Part shown: piece by piece, positions 7,173 through 60,199 of the stretch
How positions within the stretch are numbered: position 1 is the first letter of the stretch
How the letters are laid out: every line of letters begins with the position of its first letter
Assembly (NCBI GenBank): GCA_030827135.1
Contig: JAURFE010000006.1
Coordinates: forward strand, 1-64,000
Origin: Vicinamibacterales bacterium
GTDB taxonomy: Bacteria; Acidobacteriota; Vicinamibacteria; Vicinamibacterales; SCN-69-37
Direction of reading: 5' to 3'
DNA: 64,000 nt
Notes under the pieces: generated by a model
What the model was told of the DNA's origin: nothing
Seen by the model: only the letters and a program-made list of their open reading frames with translations
Database searches by the model: none
Program-made: the position numbers and the translations under genes

Positions 7173-8126
7173 CTACCCGAGCACTGTCGAGGGCTGGAGC
7201 ATGCCGCCGCGCAGGTCGGCCAGAGCGACGAGGGCGCCGTGTCCGTCGAGCAGGCGGATTTTCTGGAGCGTGGCCGAGGCCGGAACCCACGGTCCTTCAA
7301 TCAGTTGCGGGCCTATGGGGTTGCCGTGCCGGACCTTGATCAGGCCGGCTTCCGAGACCTGAACAGCCGGCAGGTCGGCCAGCGCCTCGGCCATCGGGGT
7401 CAGGTGGGCTTCCACCTCCGGGCCCAGACGCTCGGCCTCGGCCAGCGGGAGGGCCCGCGCCACGTCGAACGGGCCGGATCGGGTGCGGCGCAGGGCATCG
7501 AGGTGGGCGGGGCAGCCAAGGGCGTCGCCCAGGTCGCGGGCGAGCGACCGCACATAAAACCCGGCTGAAACGGACACACGAATACGGAGCAGGGCGCCCT
7601 CGCGGGCCAGCCAGGACCACTCGTGCAGCGCCACGGACGCCCGCTTCAGGTCCATGGGTTTGTTCTGACGCGCAAGGTCGTACGCCCGCTGACCATCCAC
7701 GCTTTTGGCGGAATACCTGGGAGGCAACTGTTCAAACGGGCCGACCGTCGCGTCGAGCGCCGCCCGAATCGCATCGTCTGAGACAACCCGCCCATCTTCC
7801 CAACCACCCACCTGCCCATCCGCCCATCCGCCCATCTCGATGGGCTCCCCAGCTGCGTCGTCCGTGGTCGTGGCAAAGCCGAAGCGGATAGTGGCGTCGT
7901 AGGCCTTGGTGTGTCCGGTGAGCAGTGTGGCGATGCGCGTCGCGCGGCCGAGCATCAGGACGAGCAGGCCGGTGGCTCGAGGGTCGAGCGTGCCCGCGTG
8001 GCCGATCGAGCGCTCACCACTGACACGGCGCATCCGGGCCACGACGTCGTGCGACGTCGGGCCGGATGGCTTGTCGATAAGGAGGACTCCGGTCAGCTTA
8101 CGAAACCGCTTTGCGCAGGGCCGCAA
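7173..8126 (-). CDS. truB: tRNA pseudouridine(55) synthase with an in-frame repeat insertion
   Basis: TruB makes pseudouridine 55 in the T loop of tRNAs. The N terminus ([17 protein letters not shown]) and the catalytic-Asp motif [14 protein letters not shown] (Asp about residue 48) are intact, as is the [17 protein letters not shown] segment. A PUA-like tail follows (VRHGNPIG). Residues about 98-113 ([15 protein letters not shown]) lie between [10 protein letters not shown] and the [11 protein letters not shown] helix. They are encoded by the same CCGCCCAT-type octamer array that fills intergenic regions elsewhere in the window, so the loop looks expanded by repeat insertion. The chosen ATG overlaps the metK end by 29 bases. 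A CTG at 8096 just downstream of the metK stop is an alternative start. Confidence 0.93.
7788..7837. repeat. CCGCCCAT-type octamer array inside truB
   Basis: A run of CCCATC, CACCTGCCCAT and CCGCCCAT units with mostly 8-base period lies within the truB reading frame. The same words recur between genes at 25340-25380 and 40353-40415. The array length keeps the frame open, giving a GGWADG/GGWEDG peptide repeat. Confidence 0.8.
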
Positions 8127-19117: not shown

Positions 19118-19186
19118 CGGCGGGTTCCTGGTTCATCGGTTCATGGTTCAGGGGCTACCAACCGCCCAGTCACCCAGTGGCCCAGC
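19118..19186. repeat. Short-word repeats (GGTTCA and CCCAGT types)
   Basis: Four GGTTC words with 7-8 base spacing are followed by five CCCAGT/GCCCAG words. They occupy the space between the SGNH gene stop and the rimP leader. They resemble in style, but not in sequence, the octamer arrays elsewhere in the window. Confidence 0.55.
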
Positions 19187-19189
19187 CGC

Positions 19190-20044
19190 TCAGTTCATGA
19201 AGGTGCAGGCGGTGGCCGGTGTCCCCGGGGGCGCGGCGATAGCCGCTGAGACCAGGTCGGCCAGATGCCGGTAGCCGGCGTCATTCGGGTGGAAGCCGTC
19301 GGACGAGTAGTGCCCGGGGTCGTACATCGGGGCCTGACACATGAGGTCGATGACGAGGACGTTCGCGGACCGGGTGGCGTTCATGGCGGCCGAGTAGCCC
19401 ACCGCAAGCCGGCGCATCCACTCCCGCTCGGTGGCAGTGAGCCCGGTGGCATAGGGCAGCCGGGACAGGTTGGGCAGGTTCAGCACAATGACCTTGGCGG
19501 TTGTGGCCCGGGCCCGGATGCCGGAGACCAGATCCTGGAATTCCTGCGCGAAGGACGCGATCTGGGTGGTGATGTACGCATCCACATTGCCATTGGCCTG
19601 GCCGGCCTTGACGGCGGCCGCGACGACGTTGACGTCATTCCCGCCGGCAAACAGGGTCACAAGCGTGGAGGCCCTCGGGACAAACGGCATTTGACCGTCA
19701 ATGAAATTGGTCACCGGGTCCCGCCCGACGGCCTTGCCCAGGTCCATCAACCGGCGGCTGACGACCGCCCCGGGAATGCCCAGGTTGGTGTCCGAAAAAT
19801 CCGGATGGGCCGATTTCAGGCGCCGGCTGACGGTCTGGACGTAGCCCGTCCCGTCCGGACACGCGGCAAACGGCTGGCAGACCACGGAGCCCCCGTAGCC
19901 AATGGCGTCACTGGCACCCACGGCCGAATACCGCACCGCGCCAACCGGCAGCCCCGGCTCGGTGGGGGTCTTCAAGGCCTCGCAGGCGCTCAGTGTGGCG
20001 GCCAACAGCAGCGCAAGAACAGGTCGCAGAAGGCGATGCACCAT
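19190..20044 (-). CDS. SGNH/GDSL-family hydrolase, probable lipoprotein
   Basis: The 284-residue product starts MVHRLLRPVLALLLAATLSAC, a lipoprotein signal with lipobox LSAC, so it is likely anchored in a membrane. SGNH blocks are visible. Block I is SAVGASDAIGYG (Ser replaces the GDS context as GAS-D, common in this subgroup), followed by TLVTLFAGGNDVN (block III Asn) and SSDGFHPNDAGYRHLAD (catalytic Asp and His). The enzyme probably cleaves an ester on a lipid or carbohydrate; the substrate is unknown. The frame extends upstream into the palindrome at 20078-20134, but the ATG at 20044 is chosen for the signal peptide. Confidence 0.85.
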   Translation of the reverse strand: MVHRLLRPVLALLLAATLSACEALKTPTEPGLPVGAVRYSAVGASDAIGYGGSVVCQPFAACPDGTGYVQTVSRRLKSAHPDFSDTNLGIPGAVVSRRLMDLGKAVGRDPVTNFIDGQMPFVPRASTLVTLFAGGNDVNVVAAAVKAGQANGNVDAYITTQIASFAQEFQDLVSGIRARATTAKVIVLNLPNLSRLPYATGLTATEREWMRRLAVGYSAAMNATRSANVLVIDLMCQAPMYDPGHYSSDGFHPNDAGYRHLADLVSAAIAAPPGTPATACTFMN

Positions 20045-24305: not shown

Positions 24306-24419
24306 GCATTGAGGATTGAGGAGGGAGGATTGAGGATTGGCAATTGGAGGATTGCGGATTGTGTGATTGCGATTGAGGGATTGAGGGATTGAGGGATTGA
24401 GGGATTGAGGGATTGAGCG
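24306..24419. repeat. ATTGAGGG octamer array between divergent genes
   Basis: About 114 bases made almost only of GATTGAGG, GGATTGCG and ATTGAGGG words. The last third is a clean tandem of ATTGAGGG with exact 8-base period (about five or six copies). It fills the space between the AmgK-like gene and the nucleotidyltransferase, where both promoters would have to lie. The same words recur as a hairpin at 33881-33949. Confidence 0.9.
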
Positions 24420-24429
24420 ATGATTAAAC

Positions 24430-25326
24430 GTGATGCTGCCTACGATTGTCTTGACCGCCGGACTTGGCACTCGTCTCGCGCCGCTGACGCGGATGCTGGC
24501 CAAGCCGGCGGTGCCGGTGGCCGGCAAGGCGTTGGTGGTGCGCGTCCTTGAATGGCTCCAGCGGGAGGGCGTTCGGGACGTCGTCCTCAATCTCCACCAT
24601 CTGCCGGCGACCGTGACGGGCATTGTCGGCGATGGTGCGCAGTTCGGCCTGCGGGTTCGGTACTCCTGGGAGCGCGAGATCCTCGGGTCGGCCGGCGGTC
24701 CGAAGCGTGCCTTGTCCTTGTGGCCGGGGCACGACGGCCCGTGTCTCATCGTGAACGGCGACACCTTGACTGATTGCTCGCTGGCCCCCCTCATCGTGGC
24801 GCACGAGATCGCTCGCGCCGCCGGAGCCGTGGCCACGATGGCCGTGGTGCGGAATCCCCGTCCGGACCATTACAACGGGCTGCGTCTGGACGAGGACGGC
24901 CGGGTGCTCGCGGTGGTGCCGAAGGGCCACGCCGAAGAGACGTGGCATTTCATCGGCGTCCAGGTGGTGGAGTCGCGGGTCTTTGCGGACGTTCCTGCCG
25001 ACACACCTGCCGAAACTGTTGCCGGCATTTACCGCGATCTCGTGGCCCACCAGCCCGGCGCCATTCGCGCGTGGCGGGTCGACGCCCCATTCCTTGATGT
25101 CGGCACGCCGGCCGACTACCTGGATGCGGTGCTGCGTGTGGCGCGTGCGGAAGGCAAGGAAACAAACCCGGTGGTCGAGCCGCCGTGGACGCCGGACATG
25201 GCCCCTGCGGTCATCGATTCAACGGCGCGGCTTACGGAGTGTGTGGTGTGGCCGGGCGCTGTCGTCGGGCCTGGCACGACGCTTCAACGGTGCGTCGTGC
25301 TACCCGATGAGCTGGTGAGCGGATGA
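24430..25326 (+). CDS. Sugar-1-phosphate nucleotidyltransferase, MurU/mannose-1-P guanylyltransferase-like
   Basis: The 298-residue protein has the nucleotidyltransferase signature TIVLTAGLGTRLAPLTRMLAKP near the N terminus, an ILGSAGGPKRAL loop, and the metal-binding LIVNGDTLTD. The C terminus has part of a left-handed beta-helix (STARLTECVVWPGAVVGPGTTLQRCVV). It would make an NDP-sugar from a sugar-1-phosphate, probably the product of the divergent kinase. The start is GTG at 24430 or the ATG directly after it. The usual first residue context is xxAMILAAGxGxR; here it is LPTIVLTAGLGTR. The last codons (VSG, TGA) run directly into a GCGGATGA-type repeat. Confidence 0.88.
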   Translation: MMLPTIVLTAGLGTRLAPLTRMLAKPAVPVAGKALVVRVLEWLQREGVRDVVLNLHHLPATVTGIVGDGAQFGLRVRYSWEREILGSAGGPKRALSLWPGHDGPCLIVNGDTLTDCSLAPLIVAHEIARAAGAVATMAVVRNPRPDHYNGLRLDEDGRVLAVVPKGHAEETWHFIGVQVVESRVFADVPADTPAETVAGIYRDLVAHQPGAIRAWRVDAPFLDVGTPADYLDAVLRVARAEGKETNPVVEPPWTPDMAPAVIDSTARLTECVVWPGAVVGPGTTLQRCVVLPDELVSG

Positions 25327-25380
25327 GCGGCTGCGCGGATGGCATCTGCCCATCCGCCCAGCTGCCCATCCGCCCATCCG
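25326..25380. repeat. GCGGATG/CCGCCCAT octamer array
   Basis: GAGCGG, GCGGATGG, CCGCCCAG and CCGCCCAT units with mostly 8-base spacing fill the gap between the nucleotidyltransferase stop and the HtrA stop. The first half reads as GCGGATG and the second half as the complement, so the block can fold back on itself. Confidence 0.75.
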
Positions 25381-30675: not shown

Positions 30676-30706
30676 CGGAATCTCCAATCCTATCAGGACC
30701 CTCGAG

Positions 30707-30742
30707 CCCCTGGACCCCTGGACCCCTGGACCTCTGGACCTC
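30707..30742. repeat. CCCTGGAC octamer array
   Basis: Four to five copies of CCCTGGAC (last ones CTCTGGAC) with exact 8-base period lie between the divergent threonine dehydratase and asparaginase genes, in the likely promoter region. Confidence 0.85.
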
Positions 30743-31924: not shown

Positions 31925-33871
31925 ATGAAAAAGCACCTCGTGACACCAATCGGATTGGCGCTGGGCGCCGTGCTGCTATGGACGGCCACGACCGGAACGC
32001 AGGGACTGCAGTTGCCGGGGGGCGACAACCCGACGATGTACCGCGTCGGCGGGGGGCATCGGGACGGCCCGTCCGTGTTTCCGCGGTCGAACTACACGCA
32101 GGTGAAGCCGCTGGTTGAGGGGGAGGTGGACTTCAAACACTTCCACACGTACGAGGAGGCCACCGCGATTCTGCGCAAGTGGGAGCGTGAGTTTCCGAAC
32201 CTGGTCGAGGTGTACTCGGTTGGCCAGTCACTCGAAGGGCGGCAGATCTGGCAGATGACGTTGACGAACAAGCAGACGGGCCGTCACACCGACAAGCCCG
32301 CGATGTTCATCGAAGGCGGCCGGCACTCGGGCGAGATCTCCGGCATCGAGGCGACGCTCTACTTCGCGAATCATCTGATCACCAACTACGGCAAGGACCC
32401 GGCGATGACGAAGCTGGTCGACACGAAGACCTTCTACGTGAAACCGCACAACAACCCGGATGGTGCGTCGGTCTATCACTACACGGCGCAGACGCTGCGA
32501 TCGTCGGTGCGGCCGATGGACAACGACGGCGACGGCCTGTTTGATGAAGACCCGGGCGACGATCTTGACGGTGACGGATTTGTTCGACAGATGCGGCAGT
32601 TTGTCGGCCCCGGCAAGGGCAACGCCACCGTCGACAAACGCGACCCGCAGGGGCGGCTGATGCTCAACGTGCCGATGGGGCAGGGCGAATACCTGATGTT
32701 CTCCGAAGGCTATGACAACGACGGCGACGGCCGCGTCAATGAGGATGGGATCGGCGGTCTCGACCTGCATCGCAACTATCCCGAGAACTGGCGTCCGGAA
32801 ACCGAAGCGAGCGGCCGTGGCTGGACGCAGGGCGGCGCCGGTGCGTATCCGCTGTCCGAGCCGGAAACCCGCGCGGTGTTCGACTTCCTGATCCGTCATC
32901 CGCACATCGGCGTTGTGCAGTCGCTCGACACGTCGGTGCCGATGATTCTGCGTGGACCATCCACGTCGAAGTCGGAAGAGTCCGTGTTCCCGGACGATCT
33001 CGTCTACTTGAAGAAGTTCGACGCGAAGGGTATCGAGATCACGGGCTACCCGTGGGCAGGTGACACGTACTGGAACTATTCCAACCGGGGCCGCGGCGGC
33101 GCGGCCCCGAGTCCGGACGCACCGGGGTCGCCGCTGTTCGGGCACGGGCCGGACTTCGGCTACCTCTATTACGGCGCCATCTGGTACGGCAATGAGATCT
33201 GGGACGGCGGCCGTCTGCCCGAGGCCGACGCGGATGGCAATGGCCAGTCCGACGACCTCGAGCGCCTGCAGTGGCTCGACAAAAACCGCCCCGGCAAGAA
33301 CGACTTCCAGCCCTGGACGAAGACCACGCATCCGACGATGGGTGCGGTCGAGGTCGGCGGATGGAATCCGAAGTTCTGGTCGCAGAACCCGCCGCCCGAG
33401 ATGCTCGAAAAGTGGGCGCGCAACGAAGCCCTCTTCAACATCTACCTGGCCGAACAGATGGCCCAGGTGAAGATCGTCTCAGTCAATACCAAGTCGGGCG
33501 CCGATGGAGCGACCGAACTCACGGTCGTGGTCACCAACGAAGGGGCCTTACCCACCGCGCTTGAAATGGCGAAGCGCGTCAAGATCGTGCGCGAAGACAG
33601 CGTGGCGATCGACTTCGCCGCGTCGCAGACGGTCACCCGCGCCGGCCAGACCGCCGGCGGTGGCGGCGCGGGCCGCGCCGGCGGCTTCGGGGGCCGTGGG
33701 GGTGCGGCTCCCGATCCCAACGCCCGTCGTCGCACAGCAGAAGGCATCGGGTGGCTGAAGCCGGGTGAAACGCGGACGCTCTCATGGACCATCCGCGGCG
33801 CGGGGCCCGTGACCGTGTCGATCGGATCGACGCGCGGCGGCACAGACTCGCGGACGGTGGAAATTCGCTGA
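31925..33871 (+). CDS. Exported M14-family zinc carboxypeptidase-like protein
   Basis: The 648-residue protein has a signal peptide, then an M14 domain with the zinc motif FIEGGRHSGEISG (His134, Glu137) and the substrate-binding NPDG and NRNYP-like segments (HNNPDGASVY; LDLHRNYPENW). Where family members keep a third zinc His, this protein reads GVVQSLDTSVP (Asp335). Calcium-type loops occur three times (DNDGDGLFDED, DNDGDGRVNEDG, DADGNGQSDDLE). A Gly/Arg-rich linker (GGGGAGRAGGFGGRGG) and a beta-rich tail end the protein. Expected role is peptide degradation in the periplasm; the Asp change may alter metal binding. Confidence 0.88.
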   Translation: MKKHLVTPIGLALGAVLLWTATTGTQGLQLPGGDNPTMYRVGGGHRDGPSVFPRSNYTQVKPLVEGEVDFKHFHTYEEATAILRKWEREFPNLVEVYSVGQSLEGRQIWQMTLTNKQTGRHTDKPAMFIEGGRHSGEISGIEATLYFANHLITNYGKDPAMTKLVDTKTFYVKPHNNPDGASVYHYTAQTLRSSVRPMDNDGDGLFDEDPGDDLDGDGFVRQMRQFVGPGKGNATVDKRDPQGRLMLNVPMGQGEYLMFSEGYDNDGDGRVNEDGIGGLDLHRNYPENWRPETEASGRGWTQGGAGAYPLSEPETRAVFDFLIRHPHIGVVQSLDTSVPMILRGPSTSKSEESVFPDDLVYLKKFDAKGIEITGYPWAGDTYWNYSNRGRGGAAPSPDAPGSPLFGHGPDFGYLYYGAIWYGNEIWDGGRLPEADADGNGQSDDLERLQWLDKNRPGKNDFQPWTKTTHPTMGAVEVGGWNPKFWSQNPPPEMLEKWARNEALFNIYLAEQMAQVKIVSVNTKSGADGATELTVVVTNEGALPTALEMAKRVKIVREDSVAIDFAASQTVTRAGQTAGGGGAGRAGGFGGRGGAAPDPNARRRTAEGIGWLKPGETRTLSWTIRGAGPVTVSIGSTRGGTDSRTVEIR

Positions 33872-33880
33872 CGTCCGCGA

Positions 33881-33949
33881 GATTGAGGATTGGGGATTGA
33901 GGATTGAAGGACGCCTCAATCCCTCAATCCTCAGTCCTCAATCCTCAAT
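33881..33949. repeat. ATTGAGG palindrome between convergent genes
   Basis: ATTGAGGATTGGGGATTGAGG on the left is answered by CCTCAATCCCTCAATCCTCAG...CCTCAAT on the right, with a few bases between the arms. Both arms are made of 8-base words. The right arm overlaps the end of the DmpA-type gene and supplies its last codons (LRIED) and stop. Confidence 0.9.
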
Positions 33950-35058
33950 AATTTGAGCGCTTCCAACGGAAGCGCTCTCACCGTTCGTCCATTGGCGGTG
34001 GTGTCGGTTGCCTTGAGCAACGAGTTGTAGATCGCTTCTTCGGTCGCGTCCATGGCCGCTTCAAAGAGGCCTGAGACCGCGTCGGTCGGCAGGAAGGACC
34101 GCGCCTGCGGGCCGTTCGCGGCGTTGACGCGGTTGACTGTGGCTGTGGAAAACGCGATGGCGTAGTCGCCGGATCCATTCGAGAACGTGGACCCGGTGCG
34201 CGCCATCGCGAAGACGGCGCGCGCGGCGAGCCGCTCGAGATCACGCGCGTCCAGCGGCGCATCCGTCGCCACAATGATCATGCAGGAGCCGTCGGCGTCC
34301 TGCGCCCACGTCGTCGACGCGCCACCAGCGCGACCCGGCGTCAGTGTCCGCCAGATCTGGCGGCCGTCGATCGTCAACCGTCCCCCGAAATTCGACTGCA
34401 CCAACACCCCGACCGTCCACGACGGGCCCTGGGCGCCCTGCTGCACCACGCGTGACGCCGTGCCGATCCCGCCTTTCCATCCAAACGCGATCGTGCCCGT
34501 CCCCGCGCCCACCGCGCCCTCAGCGACCGGGCCGGATGCCGCACTCGTGATTGAGGCGATCACATGTTCCCTGGTCACAGGCAGGCTGCGAATGTCGTTC
34601 AGGCCGCCGTCATTGGTCTCGCCCACGAGCGCATTCACCGAGCGCACGTTCTCGTTGCCCTCCTGCGCCAGCGTCCAGCGCACCACGGCCTCAACAGCCG
34701 TGCCCACGGCCAGTGTGTTGGTCAGCACAATGGGGCTCTCGATGGTGCCCAGCTCGCGCACCTGGGTTGAGCCCGCGAGTTTGCCGAAGGCATTCCCGAT
34801 GAACACGGCGCCGGGCACCTTGTCGCGGAACAGGTTCCCGCCGTGAGGCAGCACGGTCGTGACACCCGTGCGCACGCGGTCGCCATCGATCAGCGTGGTC
34901 TGGCCCACCCGCACGTCCGGCACATCCGTGATCGCGTTGAGCGCTCCGGGCGTTCCCGCGCCCGGCGCAATGCCCAGATCCCTCGCCCGCGGACGGTCCT
35001 GGGCGACCACAGCAGCAACAAGGAGCACGCCCATGGCGGAAGCTACGACGGTTTTCAC
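33931..35058 (-). CDS. P1 (S58) family peptidase, DmpA/beta-aminopeptidase type, exported
   Basis: The 375-residue protein has a signal peptide (MKTVVASAMGVLLVAAVVAQ) and the DmpA order: ARDLGIAPGAGTPGALNAITDVPDVRVGQTT, GGNLFRDKVPGAVFIGNAFGKLAGSTQV, IESPIVLTNTLAVG, and the autocleavage Ser in DGSCMIIVATDAPLDARDL. The proenzyme self-cleaves before this Ser (about residue 264), which then hydrolyses N-terminal D- or beta-amino acids. The last five residues are encoded by the ATTGAGG repeat, so the native C terminus may have been replaced. Confidence 0.9.
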   Translation of the reverse strand: MKTVVASAMGVLLVAAVVAQDRPRARDLGIAPGAGTPGALNAITDVPDVRVGQTTLIDGDRVRTGVTTVLPHGGNLFRDKVPGAVFIGNAFGKLAGSTQVRELGTIESPIVLTNTLAVGTAVEAVVRWTLAQEGNENVRSVNALVGETNDGGLNDIRSLPVTREHVIASITSAASGPVAEGAVGAGTGTIAFGWKGGIGTASRVVQQGAQGPSWTVGVLVQSNFGGRLTIDGRQIWRTLTPGRAGGASTTWAQDADGSCMIIVATDAPLDARDLERLAARAVFAMARTGSTFSNGSGDYAIAFSTATVNRVNAANGPQARSFLPTDAVSGLFEAAMDATEEAIYNSLLKATDTTANGRTVRALPLEALKLLRIED

Positions 35059-35076
35059 AGGACGAGCCTTTCAGTA

Positions 35077-35231
35077 AATGAGGCAATGGGGCAATGAGGC
35101 AATGGGGCAATGGAATGGGGCAATGAGGCAATGGGCCAATGGAATTGGCGGAATTGCGGGAATTGCATTGCCTCATTGCCGAATGCAGCCATTCCATTGC
35201 CCCATTGCCTCATTGCCTCATTGCCCCATTT
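35077..35231. repeat. GGCAATGR palindromic element, copy B (divergent genes)
   Basis: The left half is a tandem of GGCAATGA/GGCAATGG octamers, then GGAATTGGCGGAATTGCGGG. The right half is the inverse, ending in CATTGCCTCATTGCCCCATT. Both halves pair over more than 100 bases. It fills the whole gap between the DmpA-type and S9 peptidase genes. Confidence 0.9.
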
Positions 35232-35291
35232 GAATGTGACTTCATGGATAATAGCCGCGACTTTCCCCTCTATGTATTGCAAGGAGCATCT

Positions 35292-38200
35292 ATGAGCAAG
35301 CGGTTGATTCGGCAAATGGCCCGCGTCGTCACGGTGATGGCGGTTGTGGCGGTGTGGGCGTGGACGCCTGTGAGCGTCGGCGCGCAGGCGCCGGTGAAAC
35401 GTCCCCTGGGCTACGACGCGGTCGACTACTGGCGGTCGATTGCCGGCACGCGGTTGTCGGAGGACGGCCAGTGGCTCGCGTATGCGGTGACGTCGCAGGC
35501 GGTCGACGGCGAACTGATCGTGCGCAATCTGGCGTCGGGTCAGGAGTTCCGCCATCCGCGCGGATCGGCGCCGGTGTTCACGCCCGACAGCAAGTTCGTG
35601 GTCTTCACCATCGTGCCGCCGAAGACGACCGACGAAGAAACGCCGGCCGCCGGCGCGCCTGCGGCCGCGGGCGGCGAAGGCGAGGCGGCTGGGGGCGCGG
35701 CTGCCGCCAACCGCAACGTCGCGGGCATCATGGCCTTGCCGAGTGGGCAGGTGACAACGGTTGATCAGATTGCCACGATCCGACTCGCGCCCGAGTCGTC
35801 CACGTGGGTCGCCCTGCACAAGGGGCGTGCGCCGGCGGCCGGTGGCCGCGGTGGTCGCGGCGGCGGTGGTCGCGCGGGCGGGGCCCCTGCCGCAGGGCAG
35901 GCCGCGGCCGCGACGCCCCCGGCCGCAGCTGCGGCCGCTGAACAGACGCCCCCGGCGGCGGCTGGCCGCGCGGGCGGTGCCCCCGCCACGCCGCCTGAGA
36001 AGCGCAAGGACCCCGGCTCCGATCTGATCATCCGCAACCTCGCGACGGGCACGGACATCACGATTGCCGAGGTCACCGAGTTTGCGTGGAACAAGGGCGG
36101 CTCGTGGCTGGCCTACACCGTGTCGTCGCCTGATGCAGCGAAGGACGGCGCGTTTGTCCGCCAGATGAGTGACGGCACTGTGCGCACGCTGCACGCCGGC
36201 AAAGGCCGCTACAAGAGCCTCGCGTTCGACGAGGCGGGCACGCAGCTGGCCTTCCTCAGCGATCAGGCCGAATACGACAAGCCCGTGTCGCCGTTCCGCG
36301 TCTACTACTGGAAGGCCGGCGAGACTGCGGCGACCGAGTTCATTTCCGGAGCGACGCGCGGGATGCCGGCCGGCATGGTCGTCCACGACACCGCGCCACG
36401 ATTCTCGAATGACGGCCGGATGCTGCTGGTGAACACGGCGCCGCCGCCCCCGCCACCCGCCGCGACAGGCGCGAATGCGCCGCCGCGTCCCATCAACGTG
36501 GACCTCTGGCATTACAAGGACATGCAGTTGCAGCCGATGCAGCGCGTGCGCGCCACCCAGGCGCGCAACCGCAGCTACAGCGCGGTGATGCACATCGGCG
36601 ACAAGCGGTTTGTGCAGTTGGCCACGCCGGATCTTCCGACGGTGAGTGTGAACGTGGCCAGCACGTCCCCCTGGGCTATCGGCACGTCGTCGTTGCCCTA
36701 CGAGCAGGAGATCTCGTGGGATCGCACATACAACGATGTCTTCCTCGTGGATGTGCGGAACGGCCAGCGTCGGCGGCTGCTTGAGAAAGTGGGCGGGGGC
36801 GCCACCCTGTCGCCCGGTGGACAGTACGTGACGTTCTTCGACGACACAGTGGGCCACTGGTTCTCGCAGCGTGTGTCCGATGGCCTCCGCGTGAACCTGA
36901 CCGAGCGGCTGCCGGTGAAGTTCTTCAACGAAGAACACGACTCCCCGAGTCAGCCCGGTTCGTACGGCTTCGGCGGCTGGACGGACGGCGATCGTACGTT
37001 GTGGGTCTATGACCGGTACGACATCTGGGAAATGCGTCCCGACGGCACCAACGCGCGTAACGTCACCGGTGGGGAAGGCCGCAAACAGGAAATCGTGTTC
37101 CGCTATCTGTCGCTTGACCCCGAACAGCGCACGATCCCGACGACGGGGCAGGTACTGCTGACCGCGACCAACGATCGCACGAAAGCCACCGGGTTCTTCC
37201 GGTTGACGGCACCGGCCGGCGCGCCACAGCAGGTTGTGATGCTCGACAAACGATTCGGCGCGGTGACGAAGGCAAAAAACGCCGATCGGTTGGTGTTTAC
37301 GCTGACGCGTTTCGAGGAGTTCGCGAATCTCTGGGTGAGTGACGGCAACTTCGGCAACATGCAGAAGGTGTCGGATGCCAATCCGCAGCAGGCCGAGTAC
37401 GTGTGGGGCAAGTCGGAGTTGATCGAGTACATCAATGCGGATGGCATCAAGCTGCGCGCCATCCTCACCAAGCCGGAGAACTTCGATCCGTCGAAGAAGT
37501 ATCCGCTGATGGTCTACATCTACGAAGGCCTGACCGATGGCCTGCATTCGTACGGGACGCCCAACGTCGGCACGAGCGTGAACATCGCGCGCTACGTGAG
37601 CAACGGCTACATTGTCCTCCAGCCGGACATCATCTACAACACCGGTTTCCCGGGTGAAGACGCCGAGAAGTGCGTGATTCCCGCGGTGAACACGGTGGTC
37701 GCGCAGGGGTACATCGATCCGAAGCGCGTCGGCATCCAGGGGCACTCGTGGGGCGGCTACCAGATCACGCACCTCATCACGCGCACGAACATGTTCGCGG
37801 CGGTGCAGGCCGGCGCGTCGGTGTCGAACATGATCAGCGCCTACGGCGGCATTCGCTGGGGCACCGGCATGGTGCGGCAGTTCCAGTACGAAAAGACGCA
37901 GAGCCGCATTGGCGCTCCGCCCTGGGACAAGACGCTGGAGTTCATCGAGAATTCGCCGATCTTCTGGGTCGAGAAGGTACAGACGCCGTATCTGACGATT
38001 CACAACGACGCCGACGATGCGGTGCCGTGGTACCAAGGCATCGAGTTCTTCACCGCGCTCCGCCGGTTGGGGAAGGAAGCGTACTTCTTCAACTACAACG
38101 GCGAGCTGCACGGCCTGCGGAACCGCGACAACATGAAACACTGGACCGTCCATCAGGACGAGTTCTTCGACCACTATCTGCTCGGCAAGCCGAAGCCCGA

Positions 38201-39974: not shown

Positions 39975-40371
39975 CAGCGCGTGAGGCCGAACGCGAAGCC
40001 GAGCGCCACGTGGTGCGACAACGTCGTCGTCTGTCCGGTGCCGTTGTGGGCCGTCGAGATGGTGGGGCGCGCGTAGGTGAGTTTGTATTCGGTGATGAGG
40101 GACAGGCGTCCTTTCAGCCGGACGTCGAATCCGGCTGCGAGATGGGCAGGCGCCAGCCGTAGTATTGCGGCGAGGTCAGCGACTCTGCCCGAAAGTCGAC
40201 CGTGGGAAAGGTGAGGTCATACCCGTCCCCCTGGACCCGGACGTCCGCCGGCCGCGTTGTATGGCCCCCCATATACAGGCCCGCATACCACTGGGCCGAC
40301 GCCACCCCCGGCACCAGCAACACACCCACGACCATCAGCGCCCGGATTGCCACCCGCCCATTCTCGCCCAT
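39975..40371 (-). pseudogene. Split outer-membrane beta-barrel protein gene
   Basis: The 5' part gives a signal peptide (MVVGVLLVPGVASAQ) and a first strand region (WYAGLYMGGHTTRPADV, YDLTFPTVDFRAE, YYGWRLP). At about 40155 the frame changes, and the other frame gives HLAAGFDVRLKGRLSLITEY, KLTYARPT and SHHVALGFAFGLTR followed by the stop at 39975. The C-terminal strand pattern is typical of OmpA-like small barrels. The total is about 130 residues instead of about 180-200, so the middle is deleted as well as frameshifted. Confidence 0.8.
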
Positions 40372-40415
40372 CCGCCCATCCGCCCATCCGCCCACCTGCT
40401 CATCCGCCCAACTGC
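40353..40415. repeat. CCGCCCAT octamer array
   Basis: CCGCCCAT is repeated four times with exact 8-base period, flanked by CTCGCCCAT and CACCTGCTCAT variants. It sits between the split barrel gene and the ALDH7 gene and supplies an ATG for the barrel frame on the minus strand. Confidence 0.9.
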
Positions 40416-40460
40416 TCGGGTTATCGTTAGTGGTTGGGTTTTGGGCTCAGGGAGACAGAT

Positions 40461-41991: not shown

Positions 41992-42163
41992 CAATGAGGC
42001 AATGGGGCAATGAGGCAATGAGGCAATGGAATTCTCGAAATGGGTGAATGAGCCAATGCAATGGCCGCAATCATTCCGCATCCATTTCGGGAATTGCATT
42101 GACCCACTAGCCAATTGCGGCAATTCCATTGCCCCATTGCCCCATTGCCTCATTGCCTCATTG
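41992..42163. repeat. GGCAATGR palindromic element, copy C (convergent genes)
   Basis: The left arm is GGCAATGR octamers then GGAATTCTCG; an inner block GCCAATGCAATGGCCGCAAT follows. The right arm inverts this (GGGAATTGCATTG, then GGCAATTCCATTGCCCCATTG and CCTCATTG units). It begins next to the ALDH7 stop and overlaps the end of the BNR gene, supplying its last codons (SMRQ) and TGA. Confidence 0.9.
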
Positions 42164-50345: not shown

Positions 50346-52559
50346 ATGACATCACAGACAGTGCTGCGGTTCCTGACGGGCAGCGTGAGTGCGCTGGCCC
50401 TTGCCGTGACCGTGTGGCCGGCGACGCCGCTGGCACAGACCCGACCGACGGCGGCTGATTACGTGAGCCCCGCGTATCCGTTCGGCCTTGTATCCGCGCG
50501 GACCACGGATCGGCTTGCCTGGATCAGCTACGACGAAGGCAAACGCAACGTGTTCACGGCGGTCGGCCCCGACTTCAAACCGGTGCGCATCACCTCGTTC
50601 ATGAATGACGATGGCGTGGATCTGACGGACCTGAGTGTCTCGGCTGACGGCAGTGTGGCGGTGTTTGTGCGGGGCCACGCGCGCAACCGCGACGGGTGGG
50701 TCGCCAATCCGCTGTCCAACTCCGATGGCACCGAGCGGGCCATCTGGGCCGTCCGTACGACCGGTGGCAGCTCCGCCTTCCGCCTGGCTGAAATTGACAC
50801 GGGCGCGCCAGTGCTTTCCCCGGATGGCCGGCATGCGCTGTACGTAAAGGGCGGTCAGATCTACAACGCCCCCGTCGTGGCCACGGCCGGCAAGACCCCG
50901 CGGGATCGGGGTGAGGAGCCCTTCATCACGGTCTTCGGGGAGAACAGCAACCCGCGCTGGTCGCCCGACAGTTCGCGGTTTGCGTTCGTCAGCAATCGCA
51001 CCGATCACAGTTTCATCGGCGTGTACGAACTCGCGACACGCAGGATCACCTGGCTCGCGCCGGACGTGGACCGCGACACCAGCCCGACCTGGTCGCCCGA
51101 CGGTACGCGCATCGCCTACATCCGCCGGCCGGGCCTGCCGTTCGGGCAGCAGCAACAACAGGGCGCGGCAGGCATTGGCAACCCGGCGGGGCCGGCGGCG
51201 GGGCGACAGGGCGGCCAGGGGGGCCGCGAGATCGGCGGCCTGACGATTCCCGGATTGTTCCGCGCGGAGTTCCGCGGCGGCGGCACCCTCGCGTTCTGGG
51301 TAGCTGACGTGAAGTCGGGGGAGGCACGCGAATTCTGGCGGCACGATCCCGCGGGCACCACCTTCCGCACCATCAACGCCATCCAGTGGGCGGGCGATCA
51401 CGTGATCTTCACGACCCAGATGCCCGACGATGAATACGACCGGTACTTCTCCGTGGCGCTCAACGGCTCGACGAAGGAGCCGGTGATGCTGACGACCACC
51501 AATGGCATCATCGAAGACGCGTCATCCATCAACCTGTCGGTCGACGGCAAGACGCTGTTCTACACCACCAACCACGGGGATATCGATCGCCGCGACATCT
51601 TTGCGGTGTCCACCGGCGGAGGCACTCCCAGGCAGGTGACCGAGACGCCGGCAATCGAAACGCAGCCGGTGCCTCTGCCGTCCGGCAAGGTGGCCGTGCT
51701 GTATGCCGATTACCGCGTACCGCAGTCGGTCGGCGTCGTGCCGGCGACGGGCGGGAACGCCACGGTCGTGTACCCCACGCTGCCCGCGCGGTATCCATTG
51801 TCCGCGCATGTCGAACCCACCAACGTCACGCTGGAAGCGTCGGACGGCGTCAAGTTCAACAATCAGCTGTTCCTGCCGAAGGACCTGAAGCCGGGCGACA
51901 AACGTCCGGCCATGGTGTTTGTCCACGGCGGACCGCAGCGGCAGATGCTGCTCGGCTACCACTATCGGCACGTCTACCACATGTTCTACGGCATCAATCA
52001 GTGGCTCGCCGACAAGGGCTACATCGTCTTGTCGGTGAACTACCGCCGCGGCGTGGGCTACGGCCGCTCGTTCCGTCAGGCCCCGAATTCCGGCGGTCAG
52101 GGCAACGCCGAATATCTCGACGTGCTCGCGGCCGGCAGGTACCTGCACTCCCGACCCGATGTCGATCCGGCACGTGTGGCGATCTGGGGACTGTCGTACG
52201 GCGGCGTGTTGACGGCGCAGGCGCTCGCGCGCAACTCCGATCTGTTTGCGGCCGGCATCGACCTCGCCGGCGTGCACCTCTGGGGCAACTCACTTGATCC
52301 GGAGAGCACGTCATTCAAATCGTCCGTGATCGGGGCGATCGACGGATGGAAGTCGCCCGTGCTCCTGCAGCATGGCGATGACGACCGCAACGTCGCGTTC
52401 ACGCAGACGACCGGCCTCGTGCAGATGCTGCGCGCGCGCAACATCGAATACGAGCTCATCGTGTTTCCAGACGACGTGCACGACTCGCTCGTGCACAGCC
52501 GCTGGATCTACATCTACGAGCGGATGGATGCGTTCCTGAAGAAACACATTGGGCAATGA
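50346..52559 (+). CDS. Exported S9-family (DPP-IV-like) peptidase
   Basis: The 737-residue protein has a signal peptide (VLRFLTGSVSALALAVTVWPATPLAQ), a beta-propeller with WSPD/PDG-type blades (PRWSPDSSRFAFVSN, PTWSPDGTRIAYI) and a C-terminal hydrolase domain. Catalytic residues lie in AIWGLSYGGVLTAQ (Ser617), LQHGDDDRNVAF (Asp) and FPDDVHDSLVHSRW (His). A Gln/Gly-rich insert (QQQQQGAAGIGNPAGP, then GRQGGQGGREIGG) interrupts the propeller near 270. The ATG has a GGAGGA site. The stop TGA is the first TGA of the GGCAATGA array that follows. Confidence 0.92.
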   Translation: MTSQTVLRFLTGSVSALALAVTVWPATPLAQTRPTAADYVSPAYPFGLVSARTTDRLAWISYDEGKRNVFTAVGPDFKPVRITSFMNDDGVDLTDLSVSADGSVAVFVRGHARNRDGWVANPLSNSDGTERAIWAVRTTGGSSAFRLAEIDTGAPVLSPDGRHALYVKGGQIYNAPVVATAGKTPRDRGEEPFITVFGENSNPRWSPDSSRFAFVSNRTDHSFIGVYELATRRITWLAPDVDRDTSPTWSPDGTRIAYIRRPGLPFGQQQQQGAAGIGNPAGPAAGRQGGQGGREIGGLTIPGLFRAEFRGGGTLAFWVADVKSGEAREFWRHDPAGTTFRTINAIQWAGDHVIFTTQMPDDEYDRYFSVALNGSTKEPVMLTTTNGIIEDASSINLSVDGKTLFYTTNHGDIDRRDIFAVSTGGGTPRQVTETPAIETQPVPLPSGKVAVLYADYRVPQSVGVVPATGGNATVVYPTLPARYPLSAHVEPTNVTLEASDGVKFNNQLFLPKDLKPGDKRPAMVFVHGGPQRQMLLGYHYRHVYHMFYGINQWLADKGYIVLSVNYRRGVGYGRSFRQAPNSGGQGNAEYLDVLAAGRYLHSRPDVDPARVAIWGLSYGGVLTAQALARNSDLFAAGIDLAGVHLWGNSLDPESTSFKSSVIGAIDGWKSPVLLQHGDDDRNVAFTQTTGLVQMLRARNIEYELIVFPDDVHDSLVHSRWIYIYERMDAFLKKHIGQ

Positions 52560-52634
52560 GGCAATGAGGCAATGGGGCAATGAGGCAATGGAATGGGCGA
52601 ATGGGGCAATGGGTGAATGGAATGTGCGCAATGG
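52553..52634. repeat. GGCAATGR half element, copy D (between same-strand genes)
   Basis: Four clean GGCAATGR octamers followed by looser GGCGAATGG and GGTGAATGG words. Only the left arm is present; there is no inverse arm. It supplies the stop of the S9 gene and the start region (MRQWNGRMGQW) of the next gene. Confidence 0.85.
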
Positions 52635-58148: not shown

Positions 58149-59213
58149 AAGCGAATGGCGCTCGTGATCGTGCTGACGGGTGCGGTTGCGCGTCTGACGG
58201 CACAGGCGCCAGTGGTGCCTGGCGCTGAGTGGGCACGCGTGGGTGATCCGAAGTCGGCAGGGTATTGCCAGGCGCCGCTCGATGCGGTGACGAGTCATCT
58301 GCAGACACTGGGCACCACGGCGGTGACCGTCGTTGTTGGCGGCAAGGTGTTGTTCGACTACGGCCCGCAGGATGAGGTGACGTACCTCGCGTCGGTCCGC
58401 AAGAGCATCCTGGCGATGATGTTCGGGCAGTACATCGCCAACGGCACCATTCGACTCGATGCCACGATGGCCGATCTCGGAATCGATGACGTGCAGGGGT
58501 TGCTGCCGAAGGAAAAGACGGCGACGGTGCGCCAGTTGCTGGCGTCACGGTCGGGCGTGTATCACGAGGCCGCCAATGCCGCGTGCACCGGGTGCGGCAG
58601 CACGTCGGGCGACCCGCCGGGGCCGCGCGGCAGCGTGGAGCCGGGCAGTTATTTCCTCTACAACAACTGGGACTTCAACGCGCTCGGGACCATCTTCGAG
58701 AAGGCGACGGGCAAAGACATCTACGTCGCGTTCGAGGAGGATTTCGCGAAGCCGCTGCAGTTCCAGGACTATCGCCTCGATGCCCAGCGCAAGGCCCGTC
58801 GTCCCCAGGCATCGCAGCACCCGGCGTATCACTTCTATCTTTCCACTCGTGACATGGCGCGACTTGGACTCTTGATGCTCCGCAACGGTCGATGGGGCAG
58901 CACGCGTCTGCTGTCAGAAGAGTGGGTTGAAGAAATGATCACGCCGGTCACGCCGGTGTCAGCAATGAACCCTGCGCCCCTCCGCGATGGCCCGTTCGGC
59001 TATGGGTACCTCTGGTGGATCTGGGACGGCCCGCACAACACCGGTATCTATCGCGACGCCTACACCGGCATCGGCGCCATCGGCCAGTTCATCACGGTGC
59101 TGCCTGAACTCGACATGGTCATCGCGCACAAGACCCGCGCGAATGCGACAGCGGTGTCCCGGGCGCAGTATTTGGATGTCGTCGACAGGGTGGCACGGGC
59201 GCGTTGTCAATGA
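58146..59213 (+). CDS. Exported serine hydrolase, beta-lactamase/class C fold
   Basis: The 355-residue protein has a signal peptide (MKRMALVIVLTGAVARLTAQ), the S-x-x-K motif in TYLASVRKSILAM (Ser83, Lys86), the Y-x-N motif in FLYNNWDFNALG (Tyr172, Asn174) and an HKT-like third motif (VIAHKTRANA). It belongs to the beta-lactamase/D-aminopeptidase/esterase clan; a penicillin-binding or esterase role is more likely than true beta-lactamase. The ATG at 58146 is chosen because the upstream ATG is in repeat sequence. The stop TGA is the first repeat TGA. Confidence 0.9.
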   Translation: MKRMALVIVLTGAVARLTAQAPVVPGAEWARVGDPKSAGYCQAPLDAVTSHLQTLGTTAVTVVVGGKVLFDYGPQDEVTYLASVRKSILAMMFGQYIANGTIRLDATMADLGIDDVQGLLPKEKTATVRQLLASRSGVYHEAANAACTGCGSTSGDPPGPRGSVEPGSYFLYNNWDFNALGTIFEKATGKDIYVAFEEDFAKPLQFQDYRLDAQRKARRPQASQHPAYHFYLSTRDMARLGLLMLRNGRWGSTRLLSEEWVEEMITPVTPVSAMNPAPLRDGPFGYGYLWWIWDGPHNTGIYRDAYTGIGAIGQFITVLPELDMVIAHKTRANATAVSRAQYLDVVDRVARARCQ

Positions 59214-59365
59214 GGCAATGAGGCAATGGGGCAATGGGGCAATGGAATTTCCGCAATTAGGTAATTCCGCAATGCAATGGCCGTAAGTGTGGTCATTCCA
59301 TTCGCCCATTCAAGAATTAGGGGAATTCCATTGCCCCATTGCCCCATTGCCTCATTGCCCCATTC
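59208..59365. repeat. GGCAATGR palindromic element, copy F
   Basis: CAATGAGGCAATGAGG and GGCAATGG octamers, then GGAATTTCCGCAATTAGG, GCAATGCAATGGCCG, then the inverse (CATTCCATTCGCCCATTC, GGGGAATTCC, ATTGCCCCATTGCC). It ends one base before the four-helix-bundle stop on the other strand. Confidence 0.9.
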
Positions 59366-59734
59366 TCAGAGCAACGCCCGTGTCGTCTTCCTCGCCTTGG
59401 CGAACATCGCCCTGAGCTGACGGGCTTCGTTGAGCAATGCGTCAAGATCCGTTGGCGCCCGACAGGTGCCTGTCGCCACGAGGATCTCCAGCCAGTGCAC
59501 GGCTTCATCGATCTCTTCGTTGACGACTTGAAGCTTCGACGCGAATTCCTTGGTTGAACGTGCCCGTCGGACCGCACGGTGATTCGCGCTCACGCTCGTC
59601 GCCGATGCGGCCAGTTGTTGGGTGACGCGAACCATCGCTGGCGGCCACGGCTGACCGCCCAGCAGCGTCAGGATGCTGACGGCAAACCGTTGTGTCCGCG
59701 CCTCAAACGCGTCCAACTTCGCGTGGCGTTCCAT
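59366..59734 (-). CDS. Four-helix-bundle protein (S23 / 23S rRNA intervening-sequence type)
   Basis: The 122-residue protein matches the four-helix-bundle family: LDAFEARTQRFAVSILTLL, MVRVTQQLAASATSVSANHR, RRARSTKEFASKLQVVNEEI and DEAVHWLEILVATG, followed by LLNEARQLRAMFAKARKTTR. Members are found inside 23S rRNA intervening sequences, as free genes of unknown role, and as accessory (Avd) proteins of diversity-generating retroelements. Neither an rRNA nor a reverse transcriptase is here. The ATG at 59734 gives the family N terminus; the frame extends upstream without similarity. Both flanks are GGCAATGR palindromes. Confidence 0.88.
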   Translation of the reverse strand: MERHAKLDAFEARTQRFAVSILTLLGGQPWPPAMVRVTQQLAASATSVSANHRAVRRARSTKEFASKLQVVNEEIDEAVHWLEILVATGTCRAPTDLDALLNEARQLRAMFAKARKTTRALL

Positions 59735-59771: not shown

Positions 59772-60016
59772 GAATGGGGCAATGGGGCAGTGAGGCAATG
59801 GAATTGCTGCAATTACTCAAGAGCCCGATGCAATTCTCAAGAATGTCAGGAATGGCCCCCTACCAGCTCGGGAAGTTCGTTCCCGTCCTCCCGCAACTGG
59901 GGCATTTCATTCCCGAACACTCATCACAACGCGGCAGGACCCAATTGTGGCCATTGCATTGCGGAATTGAAGCATTGCGGCAATTCCATTGCCCCATTGC
60001 CCAATTGCCCAATTCT
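59772..60016. repeat. GGCAATGR palindromic element, copy G, adjacent to tRNA-Leu
   Basis: The largest copy, about 245 bases. The outer arms are GGCAATGR octamers with GGAATTGCTGCAATT on the left and the inverse on the right. A nested inner palindrome has GGAATGGCCCC answered by GGGGCATTTCATTCC. The right end is five bases from the CCA end of the tRNA-Leu gene. Confidence 0.88.
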
Positions 60017-60020
60017 TGAA

Positions 60021-60107
60021 TGGTGCGGAAGAAAGGACTCGAACCTTCACCCTATTGCTAGGACTAGCTCCTGAGGCTAGCGCGTCTGCCAATTCCGCCA
60101 CTTCCGC
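60021..60107 (-). tRNA. tRNA-Leu (anticodon CAG)
   Basis: On the minus strand the seven-pair acceptor stem GCGGAAG / CTTCCGC is followed by discriminator A and an encoded CCA (60021-60023). The D arm is GTGGCGGAATTGGCAGAC, and the anticodon arm is CTAGC-CTCAGGA-GCTAG with anticodon CAG. A long variable arm typical of class II tRNAs and a GGTTCGAGTCC T arm complete it. It reads CUG codons, the most used Leu codon in this GC-rich genome. Confidence 0.97.
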
Positions 60108-60162: not shown

Positions 60163-60199
60163 GCCCAACCACCCAACCTGACCCAACCCCACCCAACCC
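60163..60199. repeat. CCCAACC array in the tRNA-Leu / sppA gap
   Basis: Four CCCAACC words at 8-10 base spacing. The block lies between the TATAAT of the tRNA promoter and a TATACT on the other strand just before sppA, so both promoters would have their -35 regions in the repeat. Related words are encoded inside the PAP2 gene. Confidence 0.75.

Follow-up and report, generated by a model that had tools for sequence, protein, structure and literature searches.

The palindrome at positions 33881-33949 of the window (the whole 64,000-nucleotide stretch of DNA analysed here) belongs, as a single copy, to a dispersed family whose arm is fixed as GTTATTGAGGATTGAGGA..GAGGATTGGCAATTG. Probably it is a shortened, non-autonomous version of a selfish hairpin element reliant on a four-helix-bundle (FHB) partner protein; recognition by this protein and mobility of the element are our inference.

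The initial annotation had described an octamer palindrome between two convergent genes. An inverted structure is clearly present, as the arms at 33882-33911 and 33920-33949, each of 30 nt, are 90% complementary across a loop of 8 nt. The RNA fold of the palindrome has a free energy of -50.3 kcal/mol against -22.4 ± 3.3 for dinucleotide shuffles (z = -8.5; none of 200 as good), and both strands fold far better than 200 shuffles. The convergent placement was likewise correct, the neighbours being an M14 peptidase gene (+) and an S58 peptidase gene (-). The repeat unit, by contrast, is not an octamer, but the 7-nt GATTGRG (TRF period 7 in both arms); octamer versions, GATTGAGGG, are present in other copies of the family. 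With up to three mismatches allowed, the unit pattern has eight matches in the window, compared with a mean of 0.00 in 100 shuffles. The features concerned are as follows.

24308-24421, + strand: second family copy, a half element in which heptamers, a GGCAATTG core and GATTGAGGG octamers are present but the inverted half is missing
31925-33871, + strand: M14 zinc carboxypeptidase gene, converging on the palindrome from the left
33881-33949, no strand: palindrome (7-nt GATTGRG array, 8-nt loop, inverted array)
33881-33911, + strand: left arm, GATTGAG GATTGGG GATTGAG GATTGAA GGA
33920-33949, - strand: right arm, inverted, with the family's terminal sequence ATTGAGGATTGAGGACTGAGGATTGAGG when read on the - strand
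33931-35058, - strand: S58 peptidase gene, converging on the palindrome from the right, its final codons and stop encoded by the array

The palindrome starts nine bases past the M14 stop codon, and the end of the S58 gene (the LLRIED codons and the stop) is encoded by the array itself. No Rfam family scored above its gathering threshold at the palindrome, the sole such match in the window being a tRNA at 60024-60107; the sub-threshold matches at the palindrome were of miRNA type and look like generic hairpin matches.

Across the 3.24-Mb genome (G000), which in sequence style looks like that of an acidobacterium of the Vicinamibacterales, a strict unit pattern gave 58 matches. In the G000 stretches sampled, the element runs from GTTATTGAGGATTGAGGA..GAGGATTGAGGATTGGCAATTG through a variable core to GATTGAGGG octamers and then the inverse, with a length of 126-212 nt in the eight copies having both exact ends. 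The start base at the 25 NTTATTGAGGA sites of the sampled sequence is G in 22 and C in one, the remaining two being the A-variant of the 33881-33949 palindrome and one unrelated match, and GGCAATTG lies within 56 nt at 19 of these 25 sites. The sister species G004 has a longer version in the gap occupied by the 33881-33949 palindrome (113 compared with 69 nt), which includes the GGCAATTG core, and the window copy is therefore probably a deletion form. The copies have the features of MITEs in that they are short, gene-less and have terminal inverted repeats in common with a longer, gene-bearing element. No transposition was observed, and no target-site duplication was evident by eye in the flanks of the eight full copies. 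Concerted evolution of the arms, although striking in some copies, was not significant, arms within one element being no more alike than arms between elements (permutation p = 0.24). We also observed two GATTGAGG elements (the name used here for members of this family) flanking a tRNA-like stretch at G000:C22:165.1-165.5k (L163 15071-15506), an arrangement found likewise in G004 (L173).

The PF05635 profile has six matches in G000, and all six of these FHB genes sit between inverted arrays, every one with a different unit (GGTTCATG, GGGGTCCA, GATTGAGG, GGGCGGATG, GGAATCGG and GGCAATGR). The gene at C22:171597 is flanked by full inverted copies of the palindrome family's own arm, which gives a gene-bearing GATTGAGG element of approx. 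680 nt (G000:C22:171.4-172.1k) composed of an array arm, the FHB gene and an inverted array arm. The gene between these ends matches PF05635 at 2.5e-13 and TIGR02436 at 2.7e-17 and was scored as 23S_rRNA_IVP. It had been suggested that palindrome formation is itself part of the process that makes such arrays; formation in place is not supported, given the ends and core common to copies at many sites and the presence of a partner gene between the same arms. In G004, arrays adjoin all five FHB genes, one of them weakly on the downstream side. Within a 466-kb sample of G000, partly picked around GATTGAGG and thus enriched for it, and with unit words chosen by hand, 66 of the 74 intergenic arrays of 6-10 nt belong to the six FHB-linked unit families.

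Several of these families, and one FHB gene, are represented in the window.

19123-19150, + strand: GGTTCAT array, partner FHB at G000:C11:1370891
25306-25380, no strand: GGGCGGATG/CATCCGCC palindrome, partner FHB at G000:C33:377621
30696-30740, no strand: CCCCTGGA (GGGGTCCA) array, partner FHB at G000:C11:1350566
35077-35230, no strand: GGCAATGR palindrome in the divergent gap between the S58 (-) and S9 peptidase (+) genes
41992-42163, no strand: GGCAATGR palindrome
52552-52633, + strand: GGCAATGR array without an inverted half
59208-59364, no strand: GGCAATGR palindrome downstream of the FHB gene
59366-59734, - strand: FHB (S23/23S-rRNA-IVP) gene, 122 amino acids, the GGCAATGR partner (PF05635 6.9e-9, TIGR02436 3.4e-17)
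59773-60014, no strand: GGCAATGR palindrome upstream of the FHB gene

Further short arrays in the window, of CCGCCCAT, CCATCCGC, CGCCCAGT and ACCCA, lie at 7788-7836, 40350-40417, 19163-19194 and 60169-60199. The FHB gene between its two GGCAATGR palindromes also adjoins the tRNA gene at 60024-60107. The parallel architecture proposed for the GATTGRG and GGCAATGR palindromes thus holds in so far as unrelated units recur in one palindromic design, but does not extend to gene context, because the GGCAATGR palindrome at 35077-35230 is in a divergent gap. The predicted structure of the window FHB protein has four helices (pLDDT 89.6), and a Foldseek search with this model returned the S23 family structures 2rld and 2gsc and, with weaker similarity, the diversity-generating retroelement protein Avd (4dwl and 8ub7). 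We know of no catalytic activity of FHB proteins.

The pairing of FHB genes with inverted arrays was assessed against control ORFs at two levels. At the level of the order, 80 PF05635 places were found in 21 genomes, of which 51 were extracted and 46 had full 300-nt flanks; 8-mers common to the upstream flank and the reverse complement of the downstream flank were compared with those of 60 shuffles. A first cut-off on raw shared 8-mers (at least ten inverted) let through 11 of the 44 control ORFs from relatives and was for this reason dropped in favour of shuffle-based tests. The match exceeded all 60 shuffles for 34 of 46 FHB genes, and for only 8 of 329 other ORFs in the G000 and G004 stretches and 1 of 44 in the loci of relatives. 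The strongest exceptions among the controls were a RAYT gene with classical direct REPs and a GxxExxY gene (TIGR04256/PF13366). GxxExxY genes, with three fragments left out of 17 matches, passed the inverted-array test in 8 of 14 cases, which indicates that FHB is not alone and that a second small gene family occupies the same array setting. Such genes (PF13366, PD-(D/E)XK-like) were seen in relatives between inverted short arrays, some of ACAGAGGC type (L143-L159; L044 2756-3157).

For the bacteria-wide scan of named genomes we used the Xanthomonas S23 protein (2gsc) as query and analysed the best 80 of at least 579 loci, which span Proteobacteria, Bacteroidetes, Nitrospirae, Planctomycetes, Chloroflexi, Firmicutes, candidate phyla and others; six of the 80 were too short or contained a run of N. 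Among these best 80, the local-alignment test for inverted flanks, with a pass defined as beating all 99 shuffles, was passed by 48 of 74 FHB loci compared with 12 of 159 other ORFs at those loci. The tests were failed by 12 of the 46 loci at order level and 26 of the 74 loci here, and a cruder 8-mer test, into which 75 loci were put, gave 29 passes in 68. A tandem array of 6-10 nt adjoins the FHB gene in 62 of the 74 loci, compared with 8 of 48 ORFs with flanks clear of the FHB gene's own, and the best period was 7 in 71 of the 92 array-bearing flanks. These data show that the pairing of a short tandem repeat, usually a 7-mer, with an FHB gene recurs in many bacterial phyla. In addition, six FHB genes on cyanobacterial plasmids, out of 28 plasmid records found, adjoin arrays of GGGAGTA, GGGAACA, GTGACAG, AGTCAGA or GGGAAGA type as judged by eye, with just a partial unit kept on the downstream side in two of the six. 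In the four Xanthomonadaceae loci among the best 80 (three Xanthomonas and one Luteimonas), GGGAATCGGGA lies upstream of the FHB gene in every case; Dokdonella, a possible fifth relative, was left out of this count. The reading frames adjoining FHB at these four loci are presumably accB and accC.

Between species of the order, the array families mostly track the FHB gene, with exceptions. The GATTGRGG pattern was found 58 times in G000, 36 in G004, four in G017 and twice each in G006 and G018, with none in the other 16 of the 21 genomes, and both rich genomes possess the partner FHB. Three successive AGATGKY units occur 38 times in G004, where they are borne by the FHB gene at C18:23248, and in none of the other 20 genomes, the control with the pattern read backward giving three matches in G004 and one in G017. 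Doublets of GGAATCGG number 29 in G011, seven in G000, three in G005 and two in G002, with none elsewhere; in both G000 and G005 an FHB gene is enclosed by arrays of this unit, and in G011 (C83), judged from coordinates, they lie on either side of an FHB match. The FHB genes at G000:C33:344257 (L125 2058-2327) and G004:C18:23248 (L127) are clearly diverged, with GGAATCGG and AGATGKY as their respective units, and look to share one site. GGCAATGR doublets are the most widespread, with 129 in G000, 82 in G011, 56 in G003, 33 in G002, 30 in G004, eight each in G001 and G006, one in G005 and none in the remaining genomes of the 21. Their partner FHB is present in G000 and, from coordinates, in G003 (C250), but the PF05635 search found no matching FHB in G004 or in G002, whose assembly is 85% complete. 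Perfect concordance of array and partner was thus not found, and either strict dependence is contradicted or the partner has been lost: the arrays may outlive or do without it, as relics, or G002 may simply miss the gene.

We compared 13 GATTGAGG sites of G000 with G004, a further query flank (C11:1335k) having no confident match. The element is present in both species at five sites (33881, 24308, C22:165k, the C22 FHB unit and C11:633k). At five more (C11:489k, C22:22k, C22:51k, C11:669k and C11:877k) both flanks aligned and the G004 site has either no element, as at C22:22k, or another palindrome; among the replacements are palindromes of GTGCTGGG, of CACAACGAGAC type and of GACGTCGGGTG REP type. 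The remaining three (C11:636k, C11:1020k and C11:1349k) aligned at a single flank or differed greatly, and were not comparable. A near-clean empty site was found at C11:489.0k, where G004 has approx. 8 nt in place of a 177-nt element plus approx. 20 nt in G000. The gap of the 33881-33949 palindrome itself holds another palindrome in G006 and a short hairpin in G001. The same intergenic slot can thus be taken by different palindromes, a pattern that would suit both a site preference and selection for hairpins.

Taken as a selfish element, the full form would comprise the array arm, the FHB gene and the inverted arm, with the gene-less copies retaining both arms and folding into long hairpins, and one repeat unit would be tied to each FHB protein. 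By analogy with its solved relatives, FHB is probably a ring-shaped oligomer, and it may recognise, as ssDNA or RNA, the tandem units of its own family within the hairpin. Together with host enzymes, and by analogy with REPINs, it would bring about copying to new intergenic sites, after which unit number would drift through slippage and deletion, as the two lengths of the 33881 copy suggest. We infer this role for FHB and for host-enzyme chemistry, which is favoured because the RAYT and reverse-transcriptase routes are disfavoured.

The rather unlikely alternative that FHB proteins are regulators or chromosome organisers that bind the arrays, which would have spread by selection and slippage without any mobility, would explain why each partner gene is flanked by its own units, as autoregulation would have it, and has a precedent in the paired octanucleotide sites read as global-regulator sites in passages on Geobacter metallireducens (PMC2700814); however, orthologous gaps show gain, loss and replacement between sister species, and the copies are discrete elements with fixed ends. 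That the arrays are ordinary simple-sequence repeats into which FHB or GxxExxY genes merely insert is very unlikely, for although array length is variable and two gene families share the setting, the units match FHB species-specifically and both ends and core are fixed. Movement of REPINs by RAYT transposases is extremely improbable: G000 does have two PF01797 genes, and inverted doublets do form hairpins, but both genes adjoin other palindromes (AAAAAGACGTCGGGTG... and GTAGGACGCGCTGGG...) rather than heptamer or octamer arrays, which disfavours RAYTs as the driver. These two genes, at G000:C11:1080.3-1081.0k (L090 10320-11044) and G000:C51:143.0-143.8k (L092 13000-13800), each have their own REP-type palindrome. 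Retro-copying, in which FHB would act in the manner of Avd, to which its fold is related, together with a reverse transcriptase in trans, can be given equally little weight; the FHB model does resemble Avd, but none of the genus's seven genomes has an RVT_1 (PF00078) match.

Finally, the palindromes might end or block transcription in both directions, having arisen or been retained at convergent gaps, and selection as transcript ends had been proposed for them. The hairpin is strong on both strands, and the gap at 33881-33949 is filled by other hairpins in G006 and G001. The GATTGAGG elements lie in nine convergent, five divergent and eight co-directional gaps, with two outside gaps, and the GGCAATGR elements in six, four and three, with one outside; the sampled stretches as a whole contain 52 convergent, 61 divergent and 122 co-directional gaps. 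Pooled, 15 of the 35 gap-located elements are in convergent gaps compared with 52 of 235 gaps (p = 0.005), a mild excess in counts made with a home-made gene caller on non-random stretches, in which the elements lengthen their own gaps. Against this, 20 of the 35 lie in divergent or co-directional gaps, no intrinsic terminator (GC-rich stem plus T-run) was found within 33500-35400, and the partner gene, common ends and species-specific units are left unexplained. As a primary explanation termination is distinctly unlikely; a secondary, co-opted role as a transcript end or barrier is possible, since in sister species the corresponding gap carries a different palindrome.

With the FHB-dependent hairpin element as the preferred reading, many bacterial 7-8-nt tandem repeats may well form one class of transposase-free hairpin mobile element, with an S23/IVP protein as specificity factor and a unit that changes as the protein diverges; on the same footing, its candidates would be Xanthomonas GGGAATC, the cyanobacterial heptamers and arrays in Chloroflexi, Planctomycetes, Nitrospirae, Bacteroidetes and others. 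The orphan S23/IVP family (2gsc, 2rld) would gain a likely DNA or RNA partner and the long-described heptamer repeats a likely source, and a protein that reads tandem 7-mers would constitute a novel type of sequence-specific factor. Unit specificity is testable at once, because the six protein-repeat pairs in one genome control each other. In the literature searched, which covered few subscription journals and preprints, no link between the S23/IVP FHB protein and heptamer repeats was found in titles, abstract openings or passages.

Among known systems, passages on the Xanthomonas GGGAATC heptamers describe 70-75 inverted pairs, mostly intergenic and species-variable, and interpret them as G-quadruplex repeats (PMC4692102). 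Our arrays resemble these in 7-nt unit, inverted pairing, location and variability, and GGGAATCGGGA is the unit of the published repeats; a term search of that paper's text found no mention of the FHB gene. The G. metallireducens sites, described in part as four tandem octamers in opposite-strand pairs and many copies, are similar in each of these respects, but were interpreted as sites for the regulators IHF/HU (PMC2700814). The Beggiatoaceae TAACTGA repeats are likewise tandem, intergenic heptamers of patchy distribution, but direct, with one inverted case in the passages describing them (PMC4679880). Neither the Geobacter nor the TAACTGA unit occurs in the 80 named FHB loci (the best 80 of at least 579). 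Similar in gene content are the 23S rRNA intervening sequences, called selfish in passages of PMC4990558, in which an S23 family protein lies inside a hairpin with terminal inverted repeats; in contrast, the elements described here are multicopy, lie between protein genes and have arms of tandem units. In organization they are like the REPIN-RAYT system, described in part in PMC3116915 as dispersed, mostly extragenic inverted doublets that form hairpins, each family beside its own partner gene and gene-less copies dominating. They differ from it in that the G000 RAYTs have other REPs and the family is not found at a Y1/HUH transposase gene, the partner here being a four-helix bundle rather than a Y1 transposase and the arms tandem 7- or 8-mers.
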